Source: a virus. Taken from it: DNA of 41,400 nt. Every line of letters starts with the position of its first letter. Position 1 is the first letter of the stretch. The stretch spans positions 1 to 41,400 of IMG/VR virus record IMGVR_UViG_3300048804_000007. The stretch is one strand, 5' to 3'. Both the position numbers and the translations under genes were made by a program. The notes beneath the pieces are model-generated. The model searched no databases, had not been told where the DNA came from, and worked only from the letters and a program-made list of their open reading frames with translations. Shown one piece after another: positions 3,498 through 40,705 of the stretch.

Positions 3498-4352
3498 ATG
3501 AAAAAAGAACAAAAATTAATACCGATGATGAAAGGATTTAAGGCAACGGACAAGGACATGAAGTGTACGCCTGGTAATAAGGCATTCCAGTACGAATTTG
3601 ATAAAATATTTGAGCATGAGGGCGAACTTGAAATGTGTAAGGCTGGTTTTCATTTTTGCGTTCATCTGTCTGGGGTTTGGAGTTTTTACAATAATAGCGA
3701 CACAAGAGTTTTTGAGGTAGAAGCCTACGATGTTCTTGATGAACGTTCCGGCGATGGCGCAGAAGTCAAAATGGTTGCGCATAAAATAAAATTCGTCAGG
3801 GAGGTAAAAATAGGGGGCGACAGTAACACTGGCTACAGTAACACTGGCTACAGGAACACTGGCGACAGTAACACTGGCTACAGTAACACTGGCTACAGGA
3901 ACACTGGCGACAGTAACACTGGCGACAGTAACACTGGCTACAGTAACACTGGCTACAGGAACACTGGCGACAGTAACACTGGCGACAGGAACACTGGCTA
4001 CAGGAACACTGGCGACAGTAACACTGGCGACTGGAACACTGGCGACAGGAACACTGGCAACAGGAACACTGGCGACTGGAACATTGGCGACAGTAACACT
4101 GGCGACTGGAACACTTCAAATTTTTCAAGTGGTTTTTTCTGCATTGAAGAACCCAAAACAATCTCCTTTAACAAGCCTTGTGAACTTTCAAGGCAAGATT
4201 TCTTGAACAGACTGGACGTGTCGAACCTTGGCGAAGCTCTGGCAAAGAATGAGCCGATTGACTTTGAGAAGGTCAAAACTGTTCCGAATATTACAAAGGA
4301 GAAACTAAAAAAACTGCATGAGAAGTTTATTGAAGCAAGAAAGGCAAAATAA
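3498..4352 (+). CDS. DUF7666-like protein with 20 pentapeptide repeats (284 aa)
   Basis: Three parts are visible. Residues 12-100 match the N-terminal domain of the protein at 11227-12615 (KGFKATDKD..., the GFHFC motif, EVEAYDV, HKIKFVRE) and resemble what I recall as DUF7666. Residues 108-207 are exactly 20 tandem pentapeptides of the form [DYN]-[SRW]-N-T-G, likely a beta-solenoid. Residues 208-284 form a helical C-terminal domain beginning EEPKTISF, again shared with the paralog (DKPKTFRLF). A good RBS (AGAGGTGG) precedes the start. No catalytic motif is visible; a scaffold, decoy or host-interaction role is possible. Confidence 0.75.
   Translation: MKKEQKLIPMMKGFKATDKDMKCTPGNKAFQYEFDKIFEHEGELEMCKAGFHFCVHLSGVWSFYNNSDTRVFEVEAYDVLDERSGDGAEVKMVAHKIKFVREVKIGGDSNTGYSNTGYRNTGDSNTGYSNTGYRNTGDSNTGDSNTGYSNTGYRNTGDSNTGDRNTGYRNTGDSNTGDWNTGDRNTGNRNTGDWNIGDSNTGDWNTSNFSSGFFCIEEPKTISFNKPCELSRQDFLNRLDVSNLGEALAKNEPIDFEKVKTVPNITKEKLKKLHEKFIEARKAK
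3819..4118 (+). repeat. 15-bp tandem repeat, 20 units (pentapeptide)
   Basis: Twenty uninterrupted 15-base units of type GAC AGT AAC ACT GGC run across 300 bases. Variation is confined to the first two codons (GAC/TAC/AAC then AGT/AGG/TGG), apart from one ATT and the last Ser codon. Higher-order triplets (DS-YS-YR units) recur, showing block duplication. Confidence 0.95.
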
Positions 4353-7907: not shown

Positions 7908-8362
7908 CTATAACTTTAACATTCTCCGGTGAGCCAAAGGCTGTCCAATCCGTCCGCTTCGCCAGAATCGGAAACTTTATGAGGAAATACCAACCCGCAA
8001 AAGTGACCGAGTGGAAGAACTGGATAAGGCTACAGGCGCAACAGCAGTTATCCCAGATAGCCGAATTTAAGCCTTTTGTTGGTGCGGTGGGTGTAGAAGT
8101 CGATTTTATATTCTCACTGCCTAAATCTGCTTCTAAGCGCGAAAAACAGCTTTTGAATTATTCCGGCGTGACACTTTGGAAAGCCAAACGACCCGACCTG
8201 GGAGATAACCTTTTTAAGGGAATGGCGGATGCCTTGACGGAAATTGTGTGGTTTGACGATTCACAGATTGTCGAGATCCACAGCCGGAAATTTTACGGAG
8301 CGAGTCCGATGATAAAAATCACGGTTTCGGAAAAGGAACCAGTGGGAGTGTTGATTAGATGA
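7904..8362 (+). CDS. RusA-like Holliday junction resolvase (152 aa)
   Basis: GTG at 7904 overlaps the previous stop. The C-terminal half has the RusA signature: RPDLGDNLFKGMADALT followed by WFDDSQIVEI, with D98, D101, D109 and D118/D119 in the positions of the metal-binding acidic residues and the invariant lysine K105. One residue (G100) is inserted compared with the usual PDLDN spacing. RusA dimers cut four-way DNA junctions and serve phage recombination and packaging. Confidence 0.88.
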   Translation: MTITLTFSGEPKAVQSVRFARIGNFMRKYQPAKVTEWKNWIRLQAQQQLSQIAEFKPFVGAVGVEVDFIFSLPKSASKREKQLLNYSGVTLWKAKRPDLGDNLFKGMADALTEIVWFDDSQIVEIHSRKFYGASPMIKITVSEKEPVGVLIR

Positions 8363-8499
8363 AAACTCCAGTCTATAAATGCCCGATACCTAACTGCAAG
8401 TATGCTGGAAAAGAAAAGCTGTGTCCGGTTTGCAGCGTTAAATACGGAAAACATGTGCCGACAGTGAAGGTCGAAAAAAGAATGATGGAGGATGTATGA
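8359..8499 (+). CDS. Small zinc-ribbon protein (46 aa)
   Basis: ATG at 8359 overlaps the RusA stop. The protein has CPIPNC and CPVC, a two-pair cysteine arrangement typical of zinc ribbons, and a basic C-terminus. It overlaps the next gene in turn (ATGA at 8496). Confidence 0.6.
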   Translation: MKTPVYKCPIPNCKYAGKEKLCPVCSVKYGKHVPTVKVEKRMMEDV

Positions 8500-8861
8500 A
8501 CCGCAAACCTATCCATCACGTCCCGCCGCAAAAAGGCAGGGACATTACGCAGAATGAAAGGCGTTTCACGGCAGTCGAGGCTAAACGTTTCGCGGAAATA
8601 CAGAGACTATTTGGACATTGGCAGAAATATCCAGAGAAGGAGGAACAGGTCTACACGCCGGAGCAGGAAAGATTCGGGATGAGATGTGAAACCATTGTGA
8701 CGGATGGAAAGGGAAAAATCCTAAGCAGGGGCAGGGGATTGCCGGAGGGAGTTTTTTCACACGGAATACCAAGCAAATTGGAGTCCAGGCCCGACCCCGT
8801 TTTAGACGTGCTCAATAAAATTCTATCAGAAATAATTAAAATAAGGGAGTTGTTAAAATGA
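8496..8861 (+). CDS. Hypothetical basic protein (121 aa)
   Basis: It is translationally coupled to the zinc-ribbon gene. The N-terminal half is basic and helical; the centre is glycine/arginine-rich (LSRGRGLPEG) and the C-terminus is an amphipathic helix (VLNKILSEIIKIRELL). No family is recognised; nucleic-acid binding is plausible from its charge. Confidence 0.6.
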   Translation: MNRKPIHHVPPQKGRDITQNERRFTAVEAKRFAEIQRLFGHWQKYPEKEEQVYTPEQERFGMRCETIVTDGKGKILSRGRGLPEGVFSHGIPSKLESRPDPVLDVLNKILSEIIKIRELLK

Positions 8862-9034
8862 TTGAAAACATAAATGCAGTTGAACTGATTAATGAAGATA
8901 GGGAAAAAATAATTATCAGTAAATATGAACCCCACGGCGTGTTATTGCACTTCGCAGACGAGGAGTTTTGGGTTGACAATGTTGCCAAGTTTATTGATGG
9001 TCTTGAAAAATTCAAGGACAACGACGAGAAATGA
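8858..9034 (+). CDS. Small acidic hypothetical protein (58 aa)
   Basis: ATG at 8858 overlaps the preceding TGA. The 58-residue acidic product alternates short strands and a C-terminal helix. A longer open frame starting at 8925 crosses this gene but belongs to the methyltransferase downstream. No family is recognised. Confidence 0.5.
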   Translation: MIENINAVELINEDREKIIISKYEPHGVLLHFADEEFWVDNVAKFIDGLEKFKDNDEK

Positions 9035-10376: not shown

Positions 10377-10435
10377 CAACCCCGCGACGTAACATAACAA
10401 GGGAGCAGAGGGATGTTAAAAATAAACAGAGTTAA
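10373..10435 (+). CDS. Tiny open frame, truncated paralog of the 10670 gene (20 aa)
   Basis: ATG at 10373 overlaps the methyltransferase TGA. The 20-residue product begins like the protein at 10670 (RRN-T-EQR shared), and the DNA is similar over about 28 bases. It may be a remnant of a duplicated start or simply a coupling peptide for the gene at 10413, whose ATG it overlaps. Confidence 0.25.
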   Translation: MTTPRRNITREQRDVKNKQS

Positions 10436-10673
10436 AATAGTTGACGGGATTCAGTCAAAGATGAAAAACCGCAGAATGATAATCAAGCGATATGCAGACA
10501 ATTCCTACTTTCTTAGCTTTAAACGGCTCGAAAAGGATATTAATGGAAACCTTCGCACTCCTGTGGAAAAAATGATGCTTTCCAGCGAGGCTTTTGAACG
10601 GTTAATAGGTGGAGGTTTAACGTTGATTGGAAGAGCCAAGCAACAGTCAAATAAAAAAGAGGCAAACCCATGA
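10413..10673 (+). CDS. Hypothetical protein (86 aa)
   Basis: The start is preceded by GGGAG 9 bases upstream. The protein has a basic N-terminal half with alternating hydrophobics (MIIKRYADNSYFLSFKRL) followed by a helix and glycines, suggesting a small beta-rich domain with a basic tail. No family is recognised. It is coupled by ATGA to the next gene. Confidence 0.55.
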   Translation: MLKINRVKIVDGIQSKMKNRRMIIKRYADNSYFLSFKRLEKDINGNLRTPVEKMMLSSEAFERLIGGGLTLIGRAKQQSNKKEANP

Positions 10674-10819
10674 GGCGCAACCCGACAAAGGAGCAGAGGG
10701 AAAAGGAAGCAAAGAAGTTCAAAGAGTGGAACGAAAAGCATCCGGCTAAATTCGATGGCGTTCTAACGCACCCAGACAGGACGGAATATATCGGGACAAT
10801 GAAAGGGAATAGGGAATGA
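10670..10819 (+). CDS. Small charged hypothetical protein (49 aa)
   Basis: ATG at 10670 overlaps the preceding stop. The 49-residue product has a strongly charged N-terminal helix (RNPTKEQREKEAKKFKEW) and a short polar tail. No family is recognised. Confidence 0.5.
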   Translation: MRRNPTKEQREKEAKKFKEWNEKHPAKFDGVLTHPDRTEYIGTMKGNRE

Positions 10820-10989
10820 AAACCTGCAAATGGCTCTATGACGACATGATTGACGTGTATAACTCGGACTGCGGACAGGCTTACTCGTTTGAAGCGTCCA
10901 GCGATCTTGAAGAGAACCATTACAGGTATTGTCCTTGGTGTGGACGTCAGATAGAAACTTTAAAGGAGGCGGAAGATGAAAAAGAGTAG
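10816..10989 (+). CDS. Zinc-ribbon protein (57 aa)
   Basis: It is coupled by ATGA to the preceding gene. The pattern C-x15-C (residues 4 and 19), then YCPWCGRQI near residue 40, is a common phage zinc-ribbon layout (TxCG...F...CPxCG). The C-terminus is acidic and overlaps the RBS and start of the next gene. Role unknown. Confidence 0.65.
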   Translation: MKTCKWLYDDMIDVYNSDCGQAYSFEASSDLEENHYRYCPWCGRQIETLKEAEDEKE

Positions 10990-11230
10990 GGCGCCGGAAA
11001 GGATATCGGTAATGGTTGACTATGATAAAAACGGTAAGCTTAAAATTACAAACAAATGGTATCCGGGCAGGAAAGGCATGAAAGAGGATATCGAATACGT
11101 CCTCGCCGGATCGGCGTGGCGGAAGACGATAAAAGAGTTAAGGGCGTGGGTGGATATCATGACTTGCCTTGGAGGGGATCTGATACATAAGGAGGAACTG
11201 TTGACAAAATTAAAGGAGATGGAAAGATGA
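10976..11230 (+). CDS. Hypothetical protein (84 aa)
   Basis: AAAGGAGGCGGAAG immediately precedes the ATG. The N-terminal half is strand-like and basic, the C-terminal half helical and ending in KLKEMER. It overlaps the repeat-protein gene by four bases (ATGA). No family is recognised. Confidence 0.55.
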   Translation: MKKSRAPERISVMVDYDKNGKLKITNKWYPGRKGMKEDIEYVLAGSAWRKTIKELRAWVDIMTCLGGDLIHKEELLTKLKEMER

Positions 11231-12615
11231 AAGGATACAAGGGATTTAATGAAGACTGGCTTTGCAAAGATAACTTTAAGTTCAAAATTGGCGAGACTTA
11301 TGAGATTCCAGAAAAGCCTATTGCATGTAAAATTGGATTTCATTTCTGCGCTGAACTTTTCGACGTAATGAGCTACTACCCCATTGATAAATTCAATCAC
11401 ATTGCAGAAGTCGAGGCTTTAGGTGATACGGCGGATCATGACGAAGATTCAAAGATCGCGACTAATAAAATAAAAATTATTCGGGAAATTGGTTTTAATG
11501 AGGCAATGGATATCATTAAAAAACAAAGTCTTGAAAAAGTTAAAAAAGAAAAAAATAAAATAAACGACGAGATTAATGCAGTACGCTCCTCGGATGCAGT
11601 ACGCTCCTCGGATGCAGTACGCTCCTCGAATGCAGTACGCTCCTCGGATGCAGTCAGCTCCTCGAATGCAGTCAACGCCTCGAATGCAGTCAGCTACTCG
11701 AATGCAGTACGCTCCTCGGATGCAGTCAGCTTCTCGAATGCAGTCAGCTACTCGGATGCAGTCAGCTACTCGAATGCAGTACGCTCCTCGGATGCAGTCA
11801 GCTTCTCGAATGCAGTCAGCTACTCGGATGCAGTCAGCTACTCGAATGCAGTCAGCGCCTCGAATGCAGTCAGCGCCTCGAGTGCAGTACGCGCCTCGAG
11901 TGCAGTACGCGCCTCGAATGCAGTCAGCTACTCGAATGCAGTCAGCCACTCGAATGCAGTCAACTACTCGAATGCAGTCAGCTACTCGAATGCAGTCAGC
12001 TACTCGAATGCAGTACGCTCCTCGGATGCAGTACGCTCCTCGAATGCAGTCAGCTCCTCGAATGCAGTCAACGCCTCGAATGCAGTCAGCTCCTCGAATG
12101 CAGTCAGCGCCTCGAATGCAGTCAGCCACTCGAATGCAGTCAGCGCCTCGAATGCAGTCAGCTACTCGAATGCAGTACGCTCCTCGGATGCAGTCAGCTC
12201 CTCGAATGCAGTCAGCTACTCGAATGCAGTCAGCTACTCGAATGCAGTCAGCTACTCGAATGCAGTCAGCTACTCGAATGCAGTCAGCTACTCGAATGCA
12301 GTACGCTCCTCGGATGCAGTCAGCTACTCGAATGCAGTCAGCCACTCGAATGCAGTCAGCGCCTCGATATTCGTAGAAAAGTCCAACGCCGCAGATCACT
12401 CTATTTTTGAAATTGACAAACCAAAAACATTCAGGCTTTTTGGCGCAAATATCGCAGAAAGCAGATGGCAAGAGGTTAATTCTTATTTAAGGGAAAATAT
12501 TGACTTTAAAAAACCACTGTCAGAAGTTGCGCCGGACGTTATTTCATGGATTAAGTCTATGCCTGAATTTAAGCGGGAGATATTTGAGAGGTTTTTTAAA
12601 AAAGGAGATGTATGA
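11227..12615 (+). CDS. DUF7666-like protein with 44 hexapeptide repeats (462 aa)
   Basis: The N-terminal domain (residues 1-90: KGYKGFNEDW, IGFHFCAELFDV, EVEALGDT, NKIKIIRE) is homologous to that of the protein at 3498-4352. After a lysine-rich helix, residues 117-380 are exactly 44 hexapeptides [NDS]-A-V-[SRN]-[YSAFH]-S, then two decayed units. The last about 70 residues form a helical domain (starting EIDKPKTFRLF) that also matches the paralog. A regular six-residue period with Ala-Val inward and Ser/Tyr outward fits a left-handed beta-helix-like solenoid. The operon position is early, not structural. Function unknown. Confidence 0.75.
   Translation: MKGYKGFNEDWLCKDNFKFKIGETYEIPEKPIACKIGFHFCAELFDVMSYYPIDKFNHIAEVEALGDTADHDEDSKIATNKIKIIREIGFNEAMDIIKKQSLEKVKKEKNKINDEINAVRSSDAVRSSDAVRSSNAVRSSDAVSSSNAVNASNAVSYSNAVRSSDAVSFSNAVSYSDAVSYSNAVRSSDAVSFSNAVSYSDAVSYSNAVSASNAVSASSAVRASSAVRASNAVSYSNAVSHSNAVNYSNAVSYSNAVSYSNAVRSSDAVRSSNAVSSSNAVNASNAVSSSNAVSASNAVSHSNAVSASNAVSYSNAVRSSDAVSSSNAVSYSNAVSYSNAVSYSNAVSYSNAVSYSNAVRSSDAVSYSNAVSHSNAVSASIFVEKSNAADHSIFEIDKPKTFRLFGANIAESRWQEVNSYLRENIDFKKPLSEVAPDVISWIKSMPEFKREIFERFFKKGDV
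11575..12366 (+). repeat. 18-bp tandem repeat, 44 units (hexapeptide)
   Basis: Forty-four perfect-length 18-base units (AAT GCA GTC AGC TAC TCG type) span 792 bases without a gap. Only codons 1, 4 and 5 change the protein. The valine codon is fully linked to the next codon: GTA always precedes CGC and GTC always precedes AGC or AAC. The four-unit block at units 8-11 is repeated exactly as units 12-15, showing duplication of blocks. Confidence 0.97.
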
Positions 12616-12977
12616 CCAACATTGAACAAGCGAAGCGGCTGAAAGAGGCGGGAATTACGCAGGGCAAATCAAGCAGGCTGTATGTCGAATATGAACATGG
12701 TGGTAAAATTCATTTTATGGAGCGTTGTCGGTCGGAATACGAGGATGGCTTATGCCGTGGAATACGAGAGAAAGCAATTGCAGATATCTACGACGAACTG
12801 GAGATGATGAATTGGCTGGCGACAGGAAGAAAAATTGAGGTTAGGAAATATTATGAGAAATGGTGCGTGGAGATTGATAATAATGGTGACACGTTTAAGC
12901 ACCATAATCTCACGGAAGCCCTAGTACAGGCTTGCGAGGCGGTTTTGAAGGAAAATAAAAAGGAGGGAAGGGGATGA
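12612..12977 (+). CDS. Hypothetical protein (121 aa)
   Basis: ATG at 12612 overlaps the stop of the repeat protein. The product is a mixed alpha/beta soluble protein with a charged N-terminus (NIEQAKRLKEAGI) and a C-terminal helix (LTEALVQACEAVLKEN) resembling small phage proteins that act on substrates passed along the operon, but no family is recognised. Confidence 0.6.
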   Translation: MTNIEQAKRLKEAGITQGKSSRLYVEYEHGGKIHFMERCRSEYEDGLCRGIREKAIADIYDELEMMNWLATGRKIEVRKYYEKWCVEIDNNGDTFKHHNLTEALVQACEAVLKENKKEGRG

Positions 12978-13246
12978 GAGAGATAATCAAGACTTGTGAT
13001 AATTGTCAAGCGCAAACCGTGTATATCGGCTATGAACCCTGCCATAGTTGCAATAGAGGCAGGGAGGGAATGGATAACGAGATTATGAAAGATAATTGGA
13101 TTGCGTCTGACTTGTACAAGGCAGAACAGGAAGCCGCCCGCCTCCGCGCCATCATCGAGGGGTTCCCGTGTTACAGGCTGCAAATATATGGGCAAGAGTG
13201 TCAAGGTTCTCCTCATGGTTTATGTCCATCATGCAAGGCAAAATAG
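12974..13246 (+). CDS. Cysteine-rich zinc-binding candidate (90 aa)
   Basis: It is coupled by ATGA. Four CxxC-type pairs or partial pairs occur: CDNC near the start, CHSC at about residue 23, single cysteines in the middle, and CPSC at the C-terminus. A helix (KAEQEAARLRAIIEG) separates the two cysteine regions. This suggests two zinc ribbons joined by a helix. Confidence 0.6.
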   Translation: MREIIKTCDNCQAQTVYIGYEPCHSCNRGREGMDNEIMKDNWIASDLYKAEQEAARLRAIIEGFPCYRLQIYGQECQGSPHGLCPSCKAK

Positions 13247-13263
13247 GAAGCGAGGGAGGGGAG

Positions 13264-13569
13264 ATGAATAATTTAGGAAAAATTAGATTGCTTTATGACA
13301 AGGACAGGGAGATATCCAAACTCAAATATCTCTTGTCAAACCTCAAGAATAAATTCCGCAATGGAATTAATGAGATTGAAGATGTGGAAAAACAAAAGAT
13401 GTCAGGACAGTATGCACTGTTCGGCTTGGATGGCAGAGGACGATACGCCTGCCGGATGGTATGTGATCCATATAAAGATGAAGATATATCCGATGAAATT
13501 ATGAACGATGTAGTTCTCATAGTTCCATTGCCGGATTTCAAGACAGTAAAAGAATTTGATGGATTTTAA
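13264..13569 (+). CDS. Hypothetical protein (101 aa)
   Basis: The frame is open upstream to 13168, but GAGGGAGGGGAG just before ATG 13264 decides the start. The N-terminal half is a helical hairpin (YDKDREISKLKYLLSNLKNK) and the C-terminal half is strand-rich with IVPLPDF. No family is recognised. It is the last gene before the intergenic RNA element. Confidence 0.6.
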   Translation: MNNLGKIRLLYDKDREISKLKYLLSNLKNKFRNGINEIEDVEKQKMSGQYALFGLDGRGRYACRMVCDPYKDEDISDEIMNDVVLIVPLPDFKTVKEFDGF

Positions 13570-13599
13570 AAGTCAACAAGATAAACGGGGAGATGCGCC

Positions 13600-13704
13600 A
13601 TGGATAAGAAACAGATAATGGGGTTTGACAAAACAACTTCATGTGATACAATAACTTCAAAGGTGTTAGAATCGCCTCTAAAAGCTGGAGTTATAAAAAC
13701 ATGA
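13600..13704 (+). CDS. Possible leader peptide (34 aa)
   Basis: ATG at 13600 has GGGGAG nine bases upstream and the frame runs 34 codons to TGA at 13702. It contains the promoter at 13625-13652 and the left arms of the helices of the RNA element. It resembles no protein; if translated it could influence which RNA structure forms, as in attenuation, but that is speculative. Confidence 0.3.
   Translation: MDKKQIMGFDKTTSCDTITSKVLESPLKAGVIKT
13625..13652 (+). promoter_or_regulatory. Sigma70-type promoter before the RNA element/HNH gene
   Basis: A perfect -35 TTGACA (13625-13630) and -10 TACAAT (13647-13652, five of six) are separated by 16 bases. The predicted transcript starts at about 13659, immediately before the structured element. 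This gives the HNH gene, or the RNA, its own promoter within the early operon. Confidence 0.75.
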
Positions 13705-13799
13705 ATACTGGGCTTGTCATTGCGTTGCCGTCAGTCTTTTCCGCAAAGGAAAACTCCAGCACGGATTCTACTTCGCAAGGGCAAGCCCTCTTTATTTAT
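13659..13799 (+). ncRNA. Structured RNA element upstream of the HNH gene
   Basis: Set A: GGGCTTGTC (13710-13718) pairs with GGCAAGCCC (13780-13788), extended by TTGCG/CGCAA after one mismatch, enclosing CCGT/ACGG and an apical TTTTCC-GCAAA-GGAAAA hairpin; a T-rich TCTTTATTTAT follows. Set B: TAGAATC (13667-13673) with GATTCTA (13764-13770), and CTGGAGTT (13685-13692) with AACTCCAG (13752-13759). Sets A and B cross each other, so they form either a pseudoknot or alternative folds. It starts at a strong promoter and ends just before the HNH start codon. It could be an attenuator, a regulatory small RNA or a homing-element RNA. Confidence 0.6.
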
Positions 13800-13807
13800 G
13801 GTGAATT

Positions 13808-14320
13808 ATGAAAAACACCGCAATGTGTCTTGGTAAGAGTATTGAAGGATATGATAATTATCTTATTTTTTTAACTGGTGAAATATACGGAAATTGCAGA
13901 AAAAGATTCCTTTCTCCGGTGCCGAATAATTGGGGATACCTACGTGTTGAACTAAGCAAAAACGGGGAACAGATTACAAAAATGGTTCATAGGCTTGTAG
14001 TGGAAGCCCATATCGGGAAAATACCTAGCGGTAAAGTTGTCAATCATAAAGATGGAAATAAGCAAAATAACAATCTGAATAATCTTGAAGTTGTAACAGC
14101 TTCGGAAAATGAAAGACACGCGGTTAAAAACGGGTTCGCGTTTCATAAACATGGCTATGGTTCTCTACTTCAAAAGACGATTAGTGGGGATATTGTGGCT
14201 CAACATGGAACAACGCGTGATGCCGCAAGGACAATGAATTGCCATCAATCTTCGATATGCAAGTCTATTGCATTAGGGCGTAAATGTAAAGGCTATATTT
14301 TTCAATGGGAGAAACAATGA
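13808..14320 (+). CDS. HNH homing endonuclease, NUMOD-type (170 aa)
   Basis: The N-terminal part resembles a NUMOD4-like segment (LTGEIYGNCRKRFLSP). The HNH core follows, with HRLVVEAHIG (H61), VVNHKDGNKQNNNLNNLEVV (N79, H80) and TASENERHA. The C-terminal 50 residues resemble a NUMOD1-like helix-turn-helix (RDAARTMNCHQSSICKSI). Such genes are selfish mobile genes that cut DNA at unoccupied sites. It has no purine-rich RBS close to the ATG. No group I intron core was found around it, so it seems free-standing. Confidence 0.85.
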   Translation: MKNTAMCLGKSIEGYDNYLIFLTGEIYGNCRKRFLSPVPNNWGYLRVELSKNGEQITKMVHRLVVEAHIGKIPSGKVVNHKDGNKQNNNLNNLEVVTASENERHAVKNGFAFHKHGYGSLLQKTISGDIVAQHGTTRDAARTMNCHQSSICKSIALGRKCKGYIFQWEKQ

Positions 14321-14577
14321 AAAACAAAATACTTGAGTGGATTTGTATTGAACTTGAAGGTGTTTGCGATCCTAGCACATGTCCTTGTAGCACAAAATTA
14401 AAATTATCAAGGATGCTGGACTCCTACCGTGATTCCATCGTGGATTCTGCGCCCGGACTTGACATGATGATACCCGAAAAAACCGAACCGAAAGAAGGAA
14501 GGAAACAATTAATTGGATGGAATGCCGCATGTAAAGAAGTCGAGGCATGGAAGAAAGAGAAAAAGGAGGGCGGGTGA
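14317..14577 (+). CDS. Small hypothetical protein (86 aa)
   Basis: ATG at 14317 overlaps the HNH stop (ATGA), chosen over an upstream in-frame ATG at 14305. Four cysteines cluster at residues 8-22 (including CDPSTCPC), and the C-terminus is a lysine-rich helix (WNAACKEVEAWKKEKK). No family is recognised. Confidence 0.55.
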   Translation: MKNKILEWICIELEGVCDPSTCPCSTKLKLSRMLDSYRDSIVDSAPGLDMMIPEKTEPKEGRKQLIGWNAACKEVEAWKKEKKEGG

Positions 14578-14579
14578 GT

Positions 14580-14798
14580 ATGAAACTTTACTATGTTGAA
14601 TATCTGGTTTGGGGCAAAGAACGGTATGAAAAAGGAGAAGCAATCCAACAGGCAACGCAATACGATGTCATTGTCGAGGCGGACGATCTGATAACCGCCG
14701 GAACCCGTGCCGTTGGCAGTCGGGAGAAGACAGAATTAAGGGTGGTTAAATATATCGGTTGCGTAGGGGTTAGACAACCAAACAGGAAGGGCAATTGA
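14580..14798 (+). CDS. Small hypothetical protein (72 aa)
   Basis: AAAAGGAGGG upstream and ATG at 14580 decide the start; the frame is also open further upstream to 14547. The product reads as a small alpha/beta domain (MKLYYVEYLVWG, YDVIVEADDLITAG, LRVVKYIG). Its strand pattern resembles small phage proteins that follow a V-x-A-D-D-xx-TA motif. Function unknown. Confidence 0.55.
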   Translation: MKLYYVEYLVWGKERYEKGEAIQQATQYDVIVEADDLITAGTRAVGSREKTELRVVKYIGCVGVRQPNRKGN

Positions 14799-14799
14799 C

Positions 14800-15096
14800 A
14801 TGCCAATTTGCAAGATGACCGATATGGAGGGGATGCCGAGATCTTGTTTGGAATGTTCCGTAGGTTGCAATGTGCATTTGGAATGGCTTGAAAAAACCAC
14901 AGCTAACACCGATGAAGAGTGGGAAGATATGAAAAGATATGTTGCGGATAAAAGACACGAAACCTGCCCCCTCTTTGCCAGGCCTTCAAGGGATGAGGCG
15001 TATAAAATATTATGCACTGCTTTTCCTAATAATTGGGGAGCGATAACATCCGAACTGCTTGACAAGCTCGGGTACGGGGAGGGGAAATATGATTAA
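14800..15096 (+). CDS. Cysteine-rich hypothetical protein (98 aa)
   Basis: AGGAAGGG precedes ATG 14800. The N-terminal half has CLECSVGC and more cysteines that may bind metal; the middle is acidic (NTDEEWEDMKRY). It ends eight bases inside the adenine methyltransferase gene. No family is recognised. Confidence 0.55.
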   Translation: MPICKMTDMEGMPRSCLECSVGCNVHLEWLEKTTANTDEEWEDMKRYVADKRHETCPLFARPSRDEAYKILCTAFPNNWGAITSELLDKLGYGEGKYD

Positions 15097-15745
15097 CATG
15101 CACATGGGTGACTGTATGGAGGCAATGACTAAGATGCCGGACAAGGCGTTCGAGCTGGCGATTGTAGATCCGCCGTATGGGATTGGCGCAGGAAAGGCGC
15201 AACAAGGAAAATGGATATCATCTCGCATGGAGAAAAAGGAGTGGGATAAGGCAATTCCGAGTCCTGAATATTTCAACGAGCTTCTTAGAGTGTCCAAAGA
15301 ACAAATTATTTTTGGTGGAAATTATTTTAATTTGCGTCCGTCACGGTGTTTTATTGTTTGGGATAAAGGTGCTGGATTTTTAGGTCGCGATTTTGCGGAA
15401 TGTGAAATAGCGTGGTGTTCTAGGGATGGCAATGCTAAAATATTTAAATATGATCCTTTAAGCAACGGCGATTATCATAATAAAATCCACCCCACCCAGA
15501 AACCCGTCGCCCTTTACAAATGGCTCCTGCAAGACTACGCCAAGCAGGGTGATAAAATACTCGACACCCACGGCGGTTCGGGCAGTATTTGCATAGCTTG
15601 CCATGATTTAGGGTTCGATCTTGATTGGATGGAGTTGGATAAGGATTACTACGATGCAGCGGTGAAACGCTTCGAGAAGCACAAGCTCCAGCCTGACATG
15701 TTCCAGGCGAAAAAGGAAGAAATTATTCAGGAAAACTTAATATAA
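15089..15745 (+). CDS. DNA N6-adenine methyltransferase, beta class (218 aa)
   Basis: I chose ATG 15089, preceded by GGGGAGGGGAA, over an upstream ATG at 15059. The catalytic motif DPPYG (residues 27-31) comes before the AdoMet-binding motif DTHGGSGS (159-166), the order of beta-class methyltransferases. HPTQKPVALYKWLL (residues about 134-147) is the characteristic motif X-like segment before motif I. DTHGGSGS replaces the usual D-x-F-x-G-S/T-G, with histidine for the aromatic residue. It probably methylates adenine in phage DNA for anti-restriction or replication control. Confidence 0.9.
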   Translation: MINMHMGDCMEAMTKMPDKAFELAIVDPPYGIGAGKAQQGKWISSRMEKKEWDKAIPSPEYFNELLRVSKEQIIFGGNYFNLRPSRCFIVWDKGAGFLGRDFAECEIAWCSRDGNAKIFKYDPLSNGDYHNKIHPTQKPVALYKWLLQDYAKQGDKILDTHGGSGSICIACHDLGFDLDWMELDKDYYDAAVKRFEKHKLQPDMFQAKKEEIIQENLI

Positions 15746-15754
15746 GGAGGTGGA

Positions 15755-16462
15755 ATGCCGAATGAATTACACACGATGCCGTTGAACTGTGAAATACTGC
15801 TTTCAAGCAGAAGTTTTCGGCGGATGAAATGGGACGAAAAAGGTGCATATCTAATCCTCCTTGCAGAGGCATGGCTGGACGGTGCGCGTCTGGAAAATAA
15901 CCCGGATGAACTCCGGGAACTGCTCGGGGTGTCAGAGGATGCCGCGTGGAGCAGAATACGGAAATTTGTAATTGAGAAGATGTTTATCCCGTCAGAGGAC
16001 GGGAAGTATTTGATGAATTCCAAGCAAACAGAGGTTTACAAGGAAGTCATCGCAAGACACAGGATGTTTTCGGAAAATGGCAGAAAAGGAAATGATATCA
16101 GGTGGCAATCTCAAGGCGATGGCAGGGCGATGTTAAGGCGATCGCATCCAAATCCAAATCCAAATCCAAATCCAAATCCAAATCCACACACACAAGAGCG
16201 CGCGGGTGTATTGAGAAATTTTAATCCACTGGAAAAAGAACCAACGCCTGAAAACGTAAAAGCAGAGGCCGAATTGAAATGTATCATCTGCACGATTGAG
16301 CGGTGCAGGGAGTTTGTGGATCACTACGCTTCGACGGGATGGCGACTCCCGAGCGGGGCTTTTATCACCGACTGGCGAAGGCGTGTTCAGGGTTTCATGG
16401 AAAAAGAAAGCAAATTTTCAAGCAACGGGAAACAAGTAAAAAGGGTTAAATGTGATATATGA
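15755..16462 (+). CDS. DUF1376-type replication-initiator-like protein (235 aa)
   Basis: Residues 1-110 fit DUF1376 (LSSRSFRRMKWDEKGAYLIL, LRELLGVSEDAAW), a winged-helix-like domain common in phage replication regions. A (Pro-Asn)6-7 linker follows at residues 131-145. The C-terminal region (CREFVDHYASTGWRLPSG, ITDWRRRVQGF) matches the short motif found at the end of phage initiator/DnaD-like proteins that recruit helicase. AAGGAGGT precedes the start. No helicase, primase or polymerase is encoded nearby, so it likely recruits host replication enzymes. Confidence 0.75.
   Translation: MPNELHTMPLNCEILLSSRSFRRMKWDEKGAYLILLAEAWLDGARLENNPDELRELLGVSEDAAWSRIRKFVIEKMFIPSEDGKYLMNSKQTEVYKEVIARHRMFSENGRKGNDIRWQSQGDGRAMLRRSHPNPNPNPNPNPNPHTQERAGVLRNFNPLEKEPTPENVKAEAELKCIICTIERCREFVDHYASTGWRLPSGAFITDWRRRVQGFMEKESKFSSNGKQVKRVKCDI
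16146..16187 (+). repeat. Hexanucleotide microsatellite (ATCCAA)n
   Basis: Six perfect ATCCAA units plus one ATCCAC encode an alternating Asn-Pro linker in the replication protein. A six-base unit changes linker length without breaking the frame. Confidence 0.9.
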
Positions 16463-17151
16463 AATTTGAGAACTTCAAATCTAATTTTGAGGCCGCATTC
16501 CAGCAAGGTATGAAAGGCGAAGGGAGCTGGATTGACACGATAGAGGCCGAAGAGGAAAGCGTGGTGCAGGAAGCCTTGTCAATGTCAGCCGAAATTTTCC
16601 TCATGAAACGACAGGCCGGAATCCATTGGAATCCGCCAGGGCTGAAAGAATTCAAATGGGAGCTTGTTAAAGTCAAAAAGGATAGGAGAAGAGACAGTTT
16701 AAACCTCTGCCAGTCCTCATGCCGCCTATGTAGGGGAACATCGGGGCTCCTGATAGTCGAGCATCATTTGACTGGAAAAGTTCTGAATCCTAACCGACCG
16801 GAGCCGATACCGGAAATTGAATTGTATATCAAGTTTGCAGCGTGTCCGGAGAAATCCAAATCATCAGTCAGTTATTACGGCTGGCCAATGGACACGGCAA
16901 TTGTCGAGATCCGGCAATACCTCTGGCTCTGTGATGCACTGGCACAGCAGCAGAAGACCGGAAAACTGCCAGTAAAGCCCGAATTCTGCGATATTCCGCA
17001 GATGGATAGGGTTTGTCCTGGGTGTGGGGCAAGTATGCGTTTAAACGCGGTTCCTGAATGCCTTGGACTTTTAAAGGGGCTGGGTAATTCTTTTGACGGA
17101 CTTTTAGAAAGTATTGTCTGTGATAATTGCTTTGAGAGGCGGTATGCATGA
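16459..17151 (+). CDS. Hypothetical zinc-binding protein of the replication region (230 aa)
   Basis: ATG at 16459 overlaps the previous stop by four bases. Two cysteine groups are visible: CQSSCRLC around residue 84 and a CPGCG...CDNC pair near the C-terminus (residues about 192 and 222), suggesting zinc-finger domains. The first 70 residues are helical. No catalytic motif is recognised. Its position after the initiator-like gene suggests a helper in replication, such as a helicase loader, but that is inference. Confidence 0.6.
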   Translation: MKFENFKSNFEAAFQQGMKGEGSWIDTIEAEEESVVQEALSMSAEIFLMKRQAGIHWNPPGLKEFKWELVKVKKDRRRDSLNLCQSSCRLCRGTSGLLIVEHHLTGKVLNPNRPEPIPEIELYIKFAACPEKSKSSVSYYGWPMDTAIVEIRQYLWLCDALAQQQKTGKLPVKPEFCDIPQMDRVCPGCGASMRLNAVPECLGLLKGLGNSFDGLLESIVCDNCFERRYA

Positions 17152-19399: not shown

Positions 19400-19460
19400 A
19401 AAGTAAAAAAATAGCGAAAAAACGAGATCGGACTAATTACCCGGTCAAGTGAGAAATCAA

Positions 19461-19500
19461 AGAGCCGTTCAGGGCTGAACACCTGACGGCTCTTTTTTTT
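19461..19500 (+). terminator. Strong intrinsic terminator between the terminase genes
   Basis: A 12-base-pair stem (AGAGCCGT-T-CAGG at 19461-19473 with CCTGACGGCTCT at 19482-19493, one bulged T) encloses an eight-base loop and is followed by eight Ts. It is the strongest terminator in the window. It lies 27 bases before the large terminase start. Confidence 0.9.
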
Positions 19501-22746: not shown

Positions 22747-22940
22747 ATAATAAAATTTCTTTTACTGTTTTGGTTGACACTGTTCCAAACATTCCGCCCG
22801 TTGTCAAGCCCGGCTTCTACTGCCCGAAATGCGGATTCAAGATGCGGGTTTACTGGAGTCGTCCAGCGACATGCGGATGCGTGGTTAGGATGCGTTTATG
22901 TACAAAATGTGGAGAAAAGACAAAAACGACAGAAAGTTGA
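22743..22940 (+). CDS. Zinc-ribbon protein with NrdR/Ogr-like pattern (65 aa)
   Basis: ATG at 22743 is coupled to the previous stop. Residues 27-65 contain CPKC, a basic stretch around SRPATCGC, and MRLCTKCGEKTKTTE. The spacing resembles the N-terminal zinc ribbon of NrdR and, less closely, Ogr/Com-type phage regulators. It lies immediately before a palindromic operator and promoter, so it may bind them. No ATP cone of NrdR is present. Confidence 0.55.
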   Translation: MNNKISFTVLVDTVPNIPPVVKPGFYCPKCGFKMRVYWSRPATCGCVVRMRLCTKCGEKTKTTES

Positions 22941-22946
22941 AACGCG

Positions 22947-22964
22947 AATTACATATATGTAATT
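22947..22964. promoter_or_regulatory. 18-bp perfect palindromic operator
   Basis: AATTACATATATGTAATT is a perfect inverted repeat located just upstream of the -35 of the portal promoter. A similar half-site, TGTAAGTAATT, occurs again inside the promoter spacer (22987-22997). This suggests regulation of the head operon by a DNA-binding protein, possibly the zinc-ribbon protein encoded beside it. Confidence 0.65.
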
Positions 22965-22971
22965 AGGTGTT

Positions 22972-23002
22972 TTGACATTATAAAAATGTAAGTAATTATA
23001 AA
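22972..23002 (+). promoter_or_regulatory. Promoter of the head operon
   Basis: TTGACA (22972-22977) is a perfect -35. TATAAA (22997-23002) gives a 19-base spacer, or TTATAA (22996-23001) an 18-base spacer. It lies 19 bases before the portal start and next to the palindrome. The wide spacer suggests that a regulator modifies its activity. Confidence 0.6.
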
Positions 23003-23020
23003 AGCAGACCGGAGGTAGGT

Positions 23021-24232
23021 TTGCTTAATAATATACTTAATTTTTTCAGACCGCAGAATAACGCGGAACAAATGATCCGCTCCATTGTGATGCGCCACCT
23101 CTCGGATGCAGGCGTGTCTGTCTCCCCTGAAATAGCGATGCGATTTTCCACCGTATACGCCTGCGTCCGGCTCCTCTCCGATACAATTGCACAGATGCCC
23201 TGCAAGCTTTATAGCACGGATATAAGCGGTGACCGCAATCCTTCAATGGGCGACCCTCTTTATAACGTGCTTTCCATTTCACCGGAGAACGGACTTACCG
23301 CGTATGACTTCTGGAAAAAATCCATTGAACAATTTCTCCTTCGTGGTTATTTCGTTGCCCGGACAATCAAGAATACAACAGGAGAAATAATCAGGCTTAT
23401 TCCCGTAAATAACGTCACAAAAATAGAGCGCGATGTTTTCGGGCGGTACGTCTTCACCTACCGGACACAGCAGGGCGAGCAACTGGAGCTAAAACAACAG
23501 GATGCTTTCTTTTCTTTCTTCTCCGTCAATGAGGACATGATTCCAATATCTCCTATTGAGGTCAACCGTAACACCGTAGGACTTGCGATAGCCGCTGAAA
23601 AGCACGGATGTAACGTTTTCAAGTCCGGTGGTACTCCTGCGGGAACACTTGAATATCCCGGCAAGCTTGATCAAAAAATAGCTGCTGCCATAAAAGAAGC
23701 ATGGGACAAGGCATACGGAGTGAATGGAGTTGGCGGCGTAGCTATTCTTGAAGGCGGCGCAAAATTTGGCAAAGTTTCCATGAGCAACGAAGATGCTCAA
23801 TACCTCCAGACAAGGCAATTCCAAAAAACCGACATATGCGGAATCTTTGGCGTTCCTCCCCACATGATTTCCGATACAGCCCAGGCAAAGGGCTGGTCTA
23901 CCATGGAGCAGATGATGATTGAGTTCGTCACGCTCACAATAAATCCAATCACAATCCGGCTGGAACAGTCAATAAAGAAATGCCTAATTCCCTCTAAAAA
24001 ATGGAATTCCGATTTTGCGAAATTCGCGACAAACGGGCTGCTTCGCGGAGATACCGGAGCGCGGACAGCCTACTACGCGGGCGGACTTGATCGCGGATAT
24101 CTCGAAATAAACGAAGTCCGGCGGCTTGAAGACATGAACGCGCTTGACGACAGCAAGATAAAAGAATTTCAGGCAAGCAAAAAATCTGCACCACCTATAC
24201 CTACACCAAAACCACAGGAGCAAGCAGCATGA
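23021..24232 (+). CDS. Portal protein, HK97 family (403 aa)
   Basis: TTG at 23021 is the probable start because GGAGG lies at 23011-23015 and the protein then begins LNNILNFFRP. FSTVYACVRLLSDTIAQMP (residues about 43-61) is the typical HK97-portal block, and the C-terminal region has GIFGVPPHMISD with DIC before it. The protein makes the ring through which DNA enters and leaves the capsid. It is coupled to the protease gene (ATGA). Confidence 0.92.
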   Translation: MLNNILNFFRPQNNAEQMIRSIVMRHLSDAGVSVSPEIAMRFSTVYACVRLLSDTIAQMPCKLYSTDISGDRNPSMGDPLYNVLSISPENGLTAYDFWKKSIEQFLLRGYFVARTIKNTTGEIIRLIPVNNVTKIERDVFGRYVFTYRTQQGEQLELKQQDAFFSFFSVNEDMIPISPIEVNRNTVGLAIAAEKHGCNVFKSGGTPAGTLEYPGKLDQKIAAAIKEAWDKAYGVNGVGGVAILEGGAKFGKVSMSNEDAQYLQTRQFQKTDICGIFGVPPHMISDTAQAKGWSTMEQMMIEFVTLTINPITIRLEQSIKKCLIPSKKWNSDFAKFATNGLLRGDTGARTAYYAGGLDRGYLEINEVRRLEDMNALDDSKIKEFQASKKSAPPIPTPKPQEQAA

Positions 24233-39906: not shown

Positions 39907-40148
39907 ATGACCACGAACTTGAAAGGATGGCGGAGAAGATAGCAGAGAAGATGAAGGGCAGTCCAGTCAATCATATCTGTCCGTTTACCGCCGAGACGGT
40001 GGCAAGTCTCAAGGATCTGGCCTTCTACTTTTCGACCGCTCAAAAAGCTTTCAAGGGCTTCATAATCCTTTGTATCGTAATAGGGGCAATCGCCGCTTTT
40101 CTCATAGGATTAAAAACTAAAATAATGGAATTTTGGGCAACGTTATAA
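39903..40148 (+). CDS. Single-pass membrane protein, holin-like (81 aa)
   Basis: The full-length version of the 2-214 gene: an acidic/basic helical N-terminus (residues 1-20), HICPFTAETVASLKDLAFY, and one membrane helix (GFIILCIVIGAIAAFLIGL). Its size and position before a lipoprotein suit a holin or spanin-like partner, without proof. The stop lies just before the lipoprotein's ribosome binding site. Confidence 0.6.
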   Translation: MNDHELERMAEKIAEKMKGSPVNHICPFTAETVASLKDLAFYFSTAQKAFKGFIILCIVIGAIAAFLIGLKTKIMEFWATL

Positions 40149-40174
40149 TGAATAATCAAAGGAGGATGAAGCTT

Positions 40175-40705
40175 ATGAGTACAGCTGAACTTAAAAAACG
40201 GGCACAAAAGGAAGCGGCTGGGTTTATTATCGTGATCGCGCTGATCGTCGCAGCGTGGCTTTTGTCGGGGTGTACGTCAATGTCAACGGTGTCTACGTTT
40301 GATCCAAAAACAGGCATAACAACCACGGTTAATGATTTTAAAGGCGACTTGGCAACCGCCGTGGTATTCGATCTCAAAGACAAGATCGTTTTTGATTTTA
40401 CCAACGGTATGGCAGTAAGGGCTAAGATAGAACCGCCCAGCAAGGAAAATCCCATGGGAATAATTGTAGTTGAATACGCCAATGGTGCGATTGGACATAT
40501 TTCAATTCCGAAAGACTGCGACTTGAGTAAATGCAATCCATCAATGCTTGCAAAAATGATTACGGCCTCAATGGGGAAAAATCTCAGCATGTCAGCAACT
40601 GGCATCAATACGACAGATCAAACAGAAACAATAGAAGAACCTAAGACCGTACCCACCGCTGAACCATCTACTTTTAAACTATTGGAACCAATAAGCGAAA
40701 AGTGA
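40175..40705 (+). CDS. Phage lipoprotein, right-hand allele (176 aa)
   Basis: AGGAGG nine bases before ATG 40175 decides the start. The N-terminal signal with lipobox LLSGC and the C-terminal FKLLEP match the 238-717 protein, but the central 110 residues are unrelated. The mature protein should be lipid-anchored in the periplasm. Confidence 0.8.
   Translation: MSTAELKKRAQKEAAGFIIVIALIVAAWLLSGCTSMSTVSTFDPKTGITTTVNDFKGDLATAVVFDLKDKIVFDFTNGMAVRAKIEPPSKENPMGIIVVEYANGAIGHISIPKDCDLSKCNPSMLAKMITASMGKNLSMSATGINTTDQTETIEEPKTVPTAEPSTFKLLEPISEK

Follow-up and report, generated by a model that had tools for sequence, protein, structure and literature searches.

A promoter followed by a stem and a T-rich tract makes up the lambda-type terminated leader RNA, or attenuator. 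Control by an RNA hairpin is known for phage homing endonucleases, the described cases being I-TevI, I-TevII, I-TevIII, segB, mobE and seg43 (PMC2988022). The seg43 gene of Aeromonas phage 25 has a stable hairpin that stops just short of the ribosome-binding site on its 5' side, with an effect that is not established there (PMC2988022). Coupling of genes at ATGA overlaps via termination-reinitiation is established in other systems (PMC6728339).

The window analyzed here, a virus record of 41,400 bases, represents a tailed phage whose terminase and structural genes occupy the part beyond about 18.9 kb. The region 13600-13807 sits among clustered small genes that are all encoded on the + strand, and had been described in an earlier note as a structured RNA next to an HNH gene. 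Most likely, the region is ordinary protein-coding phage DNA and not a non-coding switch RNA. As read from the sequence, it is spanned by two small ORFs directly 5' of a free-standing HNH endonuclease gene (HNH_3, PF13392; phrog_59; 13808-14320). ORF1 (13600-13704; 34 codons, MDKKQIMGFDKTTSCDTITSKVLESPLKAGVIKT) is preceded by an SD-like GGGGAG at 13587-13592, 7 nt 5' of ATG 13600. It corresponds to the 34-codon leader frame of the earlier note, which was right in this respect and missed the second frame running through the structured stretch. This second frame, ORF2 (36 codons, MNTGLVIALPSVFSAKENSSTDSTSQGQALFIYGEL), extends from ATG 13701 to TGA 13811, has an SD-like GGAG at 13687-13690, 10 nt 5' of its ATG, and covers most of the supposedly non-coding stretch.

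Same-strand ATGA stop/start overlaps of 4 nt connect ORF1 with ORF2 (13704/13701), ORF2 with the HNH gene (13811/13808) and the HNH gene with gene 14317 (14320/14317). The last of these (14317-14577) is the next gene of the packed cluster and has no family match. Two-step ATGA chains with ORFs of at least 30 codons, such as the observed 13600-13701-13808, which continues to 14317, were found at 14 of 10,942 random ATGA sites (0.13%) when the dinucleotides were preserved in the random sequence. Across 10413-17151, minus-4 overlaps are present at 7 of 15 junctions, and at 4 of 12 once the junctions of the ORF1-ORF2-HNH-14317 chain are left out (11230/11227, 12615/12612, 12977/12974 and 16462/16459). 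When ORF1 and ORF2 are counted, an intergenic gap disappears, and 13264-17151 is free of any gap longer than 30 nt.

Other small or unusual genes were noted in the window. A second run of small ORFs with ATGA overlaps lies at 8222-9031 (8359, 8496, 8679, 8858 and 9031). The middle parts of genes 11227-12615 and 3498-4352 consist of long runs of five-residue repeats (SNAVS..., SNTGD...), and the former gene encodes an N-terminal DUF7666 domain. Near both ends of the record, at 196-717 and 40133-40705, there are paralogous lipoprotein-like genes.

Among the three forward frames, those of ORF1 and ORF2 have the highest codon scores in their respective parts, and these scores are nearer to coding than to non-coding sequence. 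ORF1 scores between the two classes, with 5% of non-coding stretches as high and 15% of coding stretches as low. Scores such as those of ORF1 and ORF2 are also matched by 5-6% of non-coding stretches and are not decisive. We infer that both ORFs are translated. Neither is confirmed as a gene, because no homologue of either was found in the collections searched. Alternatively, given an indel of one base in the A5 run (13695-13699), ORF1 and ORF2 could be a single gene of 70 codons; the joined 70-aa reading of ORF1 and ORF2, used as a search query, gave no credible match.

The HNH gene encodes a protein of 170 aa with an HNH_3 domain only, and its codon usage is foreign to the rest of the phage. 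Its start is preceded by a weak SD-like GGTGA at 13800-13804. The starts of the HNH gene and of gene 14317 have 10 nt in common, ATGAAAAACA, the longest run shared among 666 pairs of gene starts. As weak evidence, this shared sequence would fit insertion of the HNH gene at an ATGA junction with the chain left intact. If so, the structured stretch would lie outside the inserted gene.

A sigma-70-type promoter is located within ORF1 on the + strand (13625-13652). It is composed of TTGACA at 13625-13630, a 16-nt spacer and TACAAT at 13647-13652, with a TG one base 5' of the -10 (extended -10), so the perfect -35 and good -10 reported previously are present. In a promoter scan, this was the top match within the surrounding 19 kb. 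It alone in the window combines an 11/12 match with the TG, compared with 0.05 such sites expected in random sequence; without the TG requirement, 0.95 sites of at least 11/12 are expected in the window. From the promoter spacing, transcription would start at about 13659. Recognition of ORF2 makes plain sense of the promoter, since the predicted leader is normal, with the transcription start, GGAG at 13687 and ATG 13701 following in order.

A complementarity search identified several helices over ORF2. The 14-bp composite stem claimed earlier was recovered as 9 bp (13710-13718/13780-13788) plus 5 bp (13720-13724/13774-13778) with one mismatch between them (C+D). Two helices do cross it, as had been proposed; their lengths are 9 and 7 bp rather than 7 and 8. 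The shorter, helix A, pairs 13667-13673 with 13764-13770. In helix B (13684-13692/13752-13760; GCTGGAGTT/AACTCCAGC), the ORF2 SD in the 5' arm pairs with an anti-SD inside ORF2. On folding, C+D is extended by the 8-bp stem E (13700-13707/13793-13800), which contains the start codon of ORF2 and extends as far as the weak HNH SD. Helix B is predicted to arise first during transcription and then to give way to the long stem, and the competing foldings stand as computed structures.

In a test over gene starts, the upstream stretch gave z = -2.95, and three further genes of the phage scored lower. The region before the portal gene, 22880-23025, folds with z of about -4.3. A predicted hairpin, AGCAGACC/GGTTTGCT, lies upstream of that gene at 22995-23030. 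Its loop displays the SD GGAGG, its stem contains the TTG start, and a promoter match of the TTGACA type lies 5' of it at 22972.

The fold over ORF2 is possibly incidental. It would be accounted for by ordinary coding sequence that contains an internal promoter and has acquired its long complementarities by chance, an explanation that keeps the coding part of the coupled operon and that we take as a serious contender without preferring it. Among 12 random windows (+ strand), crossing pairs of comparable strength arose 7 times and a triple once. Moreover, the MFE z of -2.7 to -2.8 is only moderately unusual, and the HNH start is predicted to be accessible. Against chance, just 1-2% of synonymous-codon controls of ORF1/ORF2 fold as well, the real fold being better than 98-99% of them, and helix B falls exactly on the ORF2 SD. 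Because so few synonymous versions reach this fold, some extra structure is possible. The predicted cost of opening the ORF2 start is 10.4 kcal/mol, 5th of 37 gene starts, which is high, not extreme. Since helix B pairs the ORF2 SD and the long stem includes the ORF2 start, some control of ORF2, and through coupling of the HNH gene, is possible according to these models.

Control aimed at the HNH start itself, through a structured leader of the T4 type (I-TevI, segB, Aeh1 mobE), is unlikely. Here a hairpin before the start would delay translation, in a geometry nearest to that of seg43 of Aeromonas phage 25. The locus does offer a promoter of its own, a free-standing HNH gene and a stable hairpin that reaches as far as the weak HNH SD (13800), and there are precedents in T4 (PMC2988022). 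On the promoter transcript, the HNH start has a middling predicted opening cost of 7.1 kcal/mol. Nevertheless, in the operon context (-100 to +110) this cost is a low 3.2 kcal/mol, 27th of 37, which places the HNH start among the more accessible of the phage. Given these two values, hiding of the HNH start as in I-TevI is not predicted. The short late transcript of T4 is without the inhibitory hairpin, whereas the promoter-proximal transcript here contains all of it, the promoter at 13625-13652 lying upstream of every helix arm. Among the relatives of the HNH gene, most leaders are not unusually well folded, so unusual folding is not a general trait of such leaders. Rather improbable, in turn, is a translated leader acting like a switch, with the SD-hiding helix and the long stem mutually exclusive or pseudoknotted; ORF1 translation would then unlock ORF2 and the HNH gene on long mRNAs and not on the promoter-proximal mRNA.

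We consider it hardly probable that the stretch is an independent non-coding RNA of the phage, about 140 nt long and with an H-type pseudoknot, running from the 13625 promoter to the T-rich tract. A structured stretch does follow directly 3' of the promoter, and both sets of helices could form in principle. However, the coupled ORFs span it, the T tract (CTCTTTATTT) is broken and poor, the stem has a 49-nt loop, and the element was missing from the terminator scan. At stem C+D, there is no short-loop, G+C-rich stem with a T run of the kind seen at 19459-19500. The proposed switch between terminating and non-terminating forms is thus without support, its 3' element not being terminator-like. 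An RNA companion of a mobile element fares likewise, as no Rfam family or homologue matches. In Rfam, no family was found at the gathering score, and in the search up to E 10 the match to RT-9 (E 1.5) is at chance level. No HEARO was among the matches up to E 10, and the HNH_3-only protein argues in the same direction against IscB, an HNH protein with a RuvC domain, and its omega RNA. Least probable, and largely refuted, is a part of a group I intron carrying the HNH gene. Several relatives of the HNH gene do sit in split genes, namely those of terminase (phiTE, Silence), ribonucleotide reductase (K412) and capsid (Dulem virus 42). Intron_gpI matches the loci of four relatives (E 2.7e-5 to 0.21), which served as positive controls, while 13400-14900 gave no match up to E 10. 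There is also no room for the 3' half of an intron, because the HNH stop overlaps gene 14317.

No DNA homologues of the stretch were found in phages, in plasmids or by viral-contig patterns. Covariance models built from this single sequence, one per fold, gave only chance-level matches (best 18.5 bits) over 46 loci with both models and over 49 records with the long-stem model. The direct neighbors, genes 13264 and 14317, had no homologue in the collections searched. Structural-gene relatives exist (54-63% identity). None of the examined relatives traced via genes 13264 and 14317, HNH, terminase and portal carries the 13600-13807 region. In Dulem virus 33, an int-alpA RNA (RF02996, 46 bits; locus positions 2282-2348) lies 20 nt 5' of an HNH gene. 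Similar sequence adjoins other genes in other phages, and the RNA was therefore ruled out as an HNH companion.

On balance, we lean toward a coupled operon, in which the two small ORFs, the HNH gene and gene 14317 are chained by ATGA overlaps, with an internal promoter and a fold over ORF2. The stretch would be a translated part of a tightly packed operon, and ribosomes would be handed on from ORF1 to ORF2, the HNH gene and gene 14317 by termination-reinitiation at the overlaps. The promoter inside ORF1 would start a second mRNA near 13659 with ORF2 as its first cistron. This mRNA probably extends to a textbook intrinsic terminator on the + strand (19459-19500; AAAGAGCCGT...ACGGCTCTTTTTTTT), which lies between the small terminase gene and the large one and is likely to be the end of the transcription unit. 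The RNA over ORF2 is predicted to pair either the ORF2 SD (helix B) or the start codon (stem E). The likeliest effect of the fold, if any, would be less independent initiation at ORF2, and hence at the HNH gene, on the promoter-proximal mRNA; on the longer operon mRNA, ribosomes coming from ORF1 would open the fold.

The locus illustrates how a structured non-coding RNA can be wrongly read into a packed phage operon with very small overlapping genes. It also suggests that a horizontally acquired HNH gene can fit seamlessly into an ATGA-coupled chain. If the fold controls ORF2, a translated leader would be added to the mechanisms by which phages are known to hold homing endonucleases in check.

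Compared with the lambda-type leader or attenuator, the locus has the same promoter, stem and T-rich tract; it differs in the length of the loop (49 nt), the interruption of the T tract and the lack of a terminator-scan match. In common with the ATGA pairs of PMC6728339, the chain has 4-nt stop/start overlaps between co-directed genes. Unlike those pairs, it contains two tiny cistrons that lack known relatives, and the coupling is predicted from the overlaps. As in the endonucleases of PMC2988022, a phage homing-type endonuclease gene is closely preceded by a promoter and a stable RNA hairpin. Of the known arrangements, that of seg43 comes nearest, the ribosome-binding site lying at the base of the stem there and, for the HNH gene, here. 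In contrast to those systems, strong hiding of the HNH start is not predicted in the operon context, the entire hairpin is downstream of the promoter, and the hairpin is traversed by a second ORF that extends into the HNH gene.
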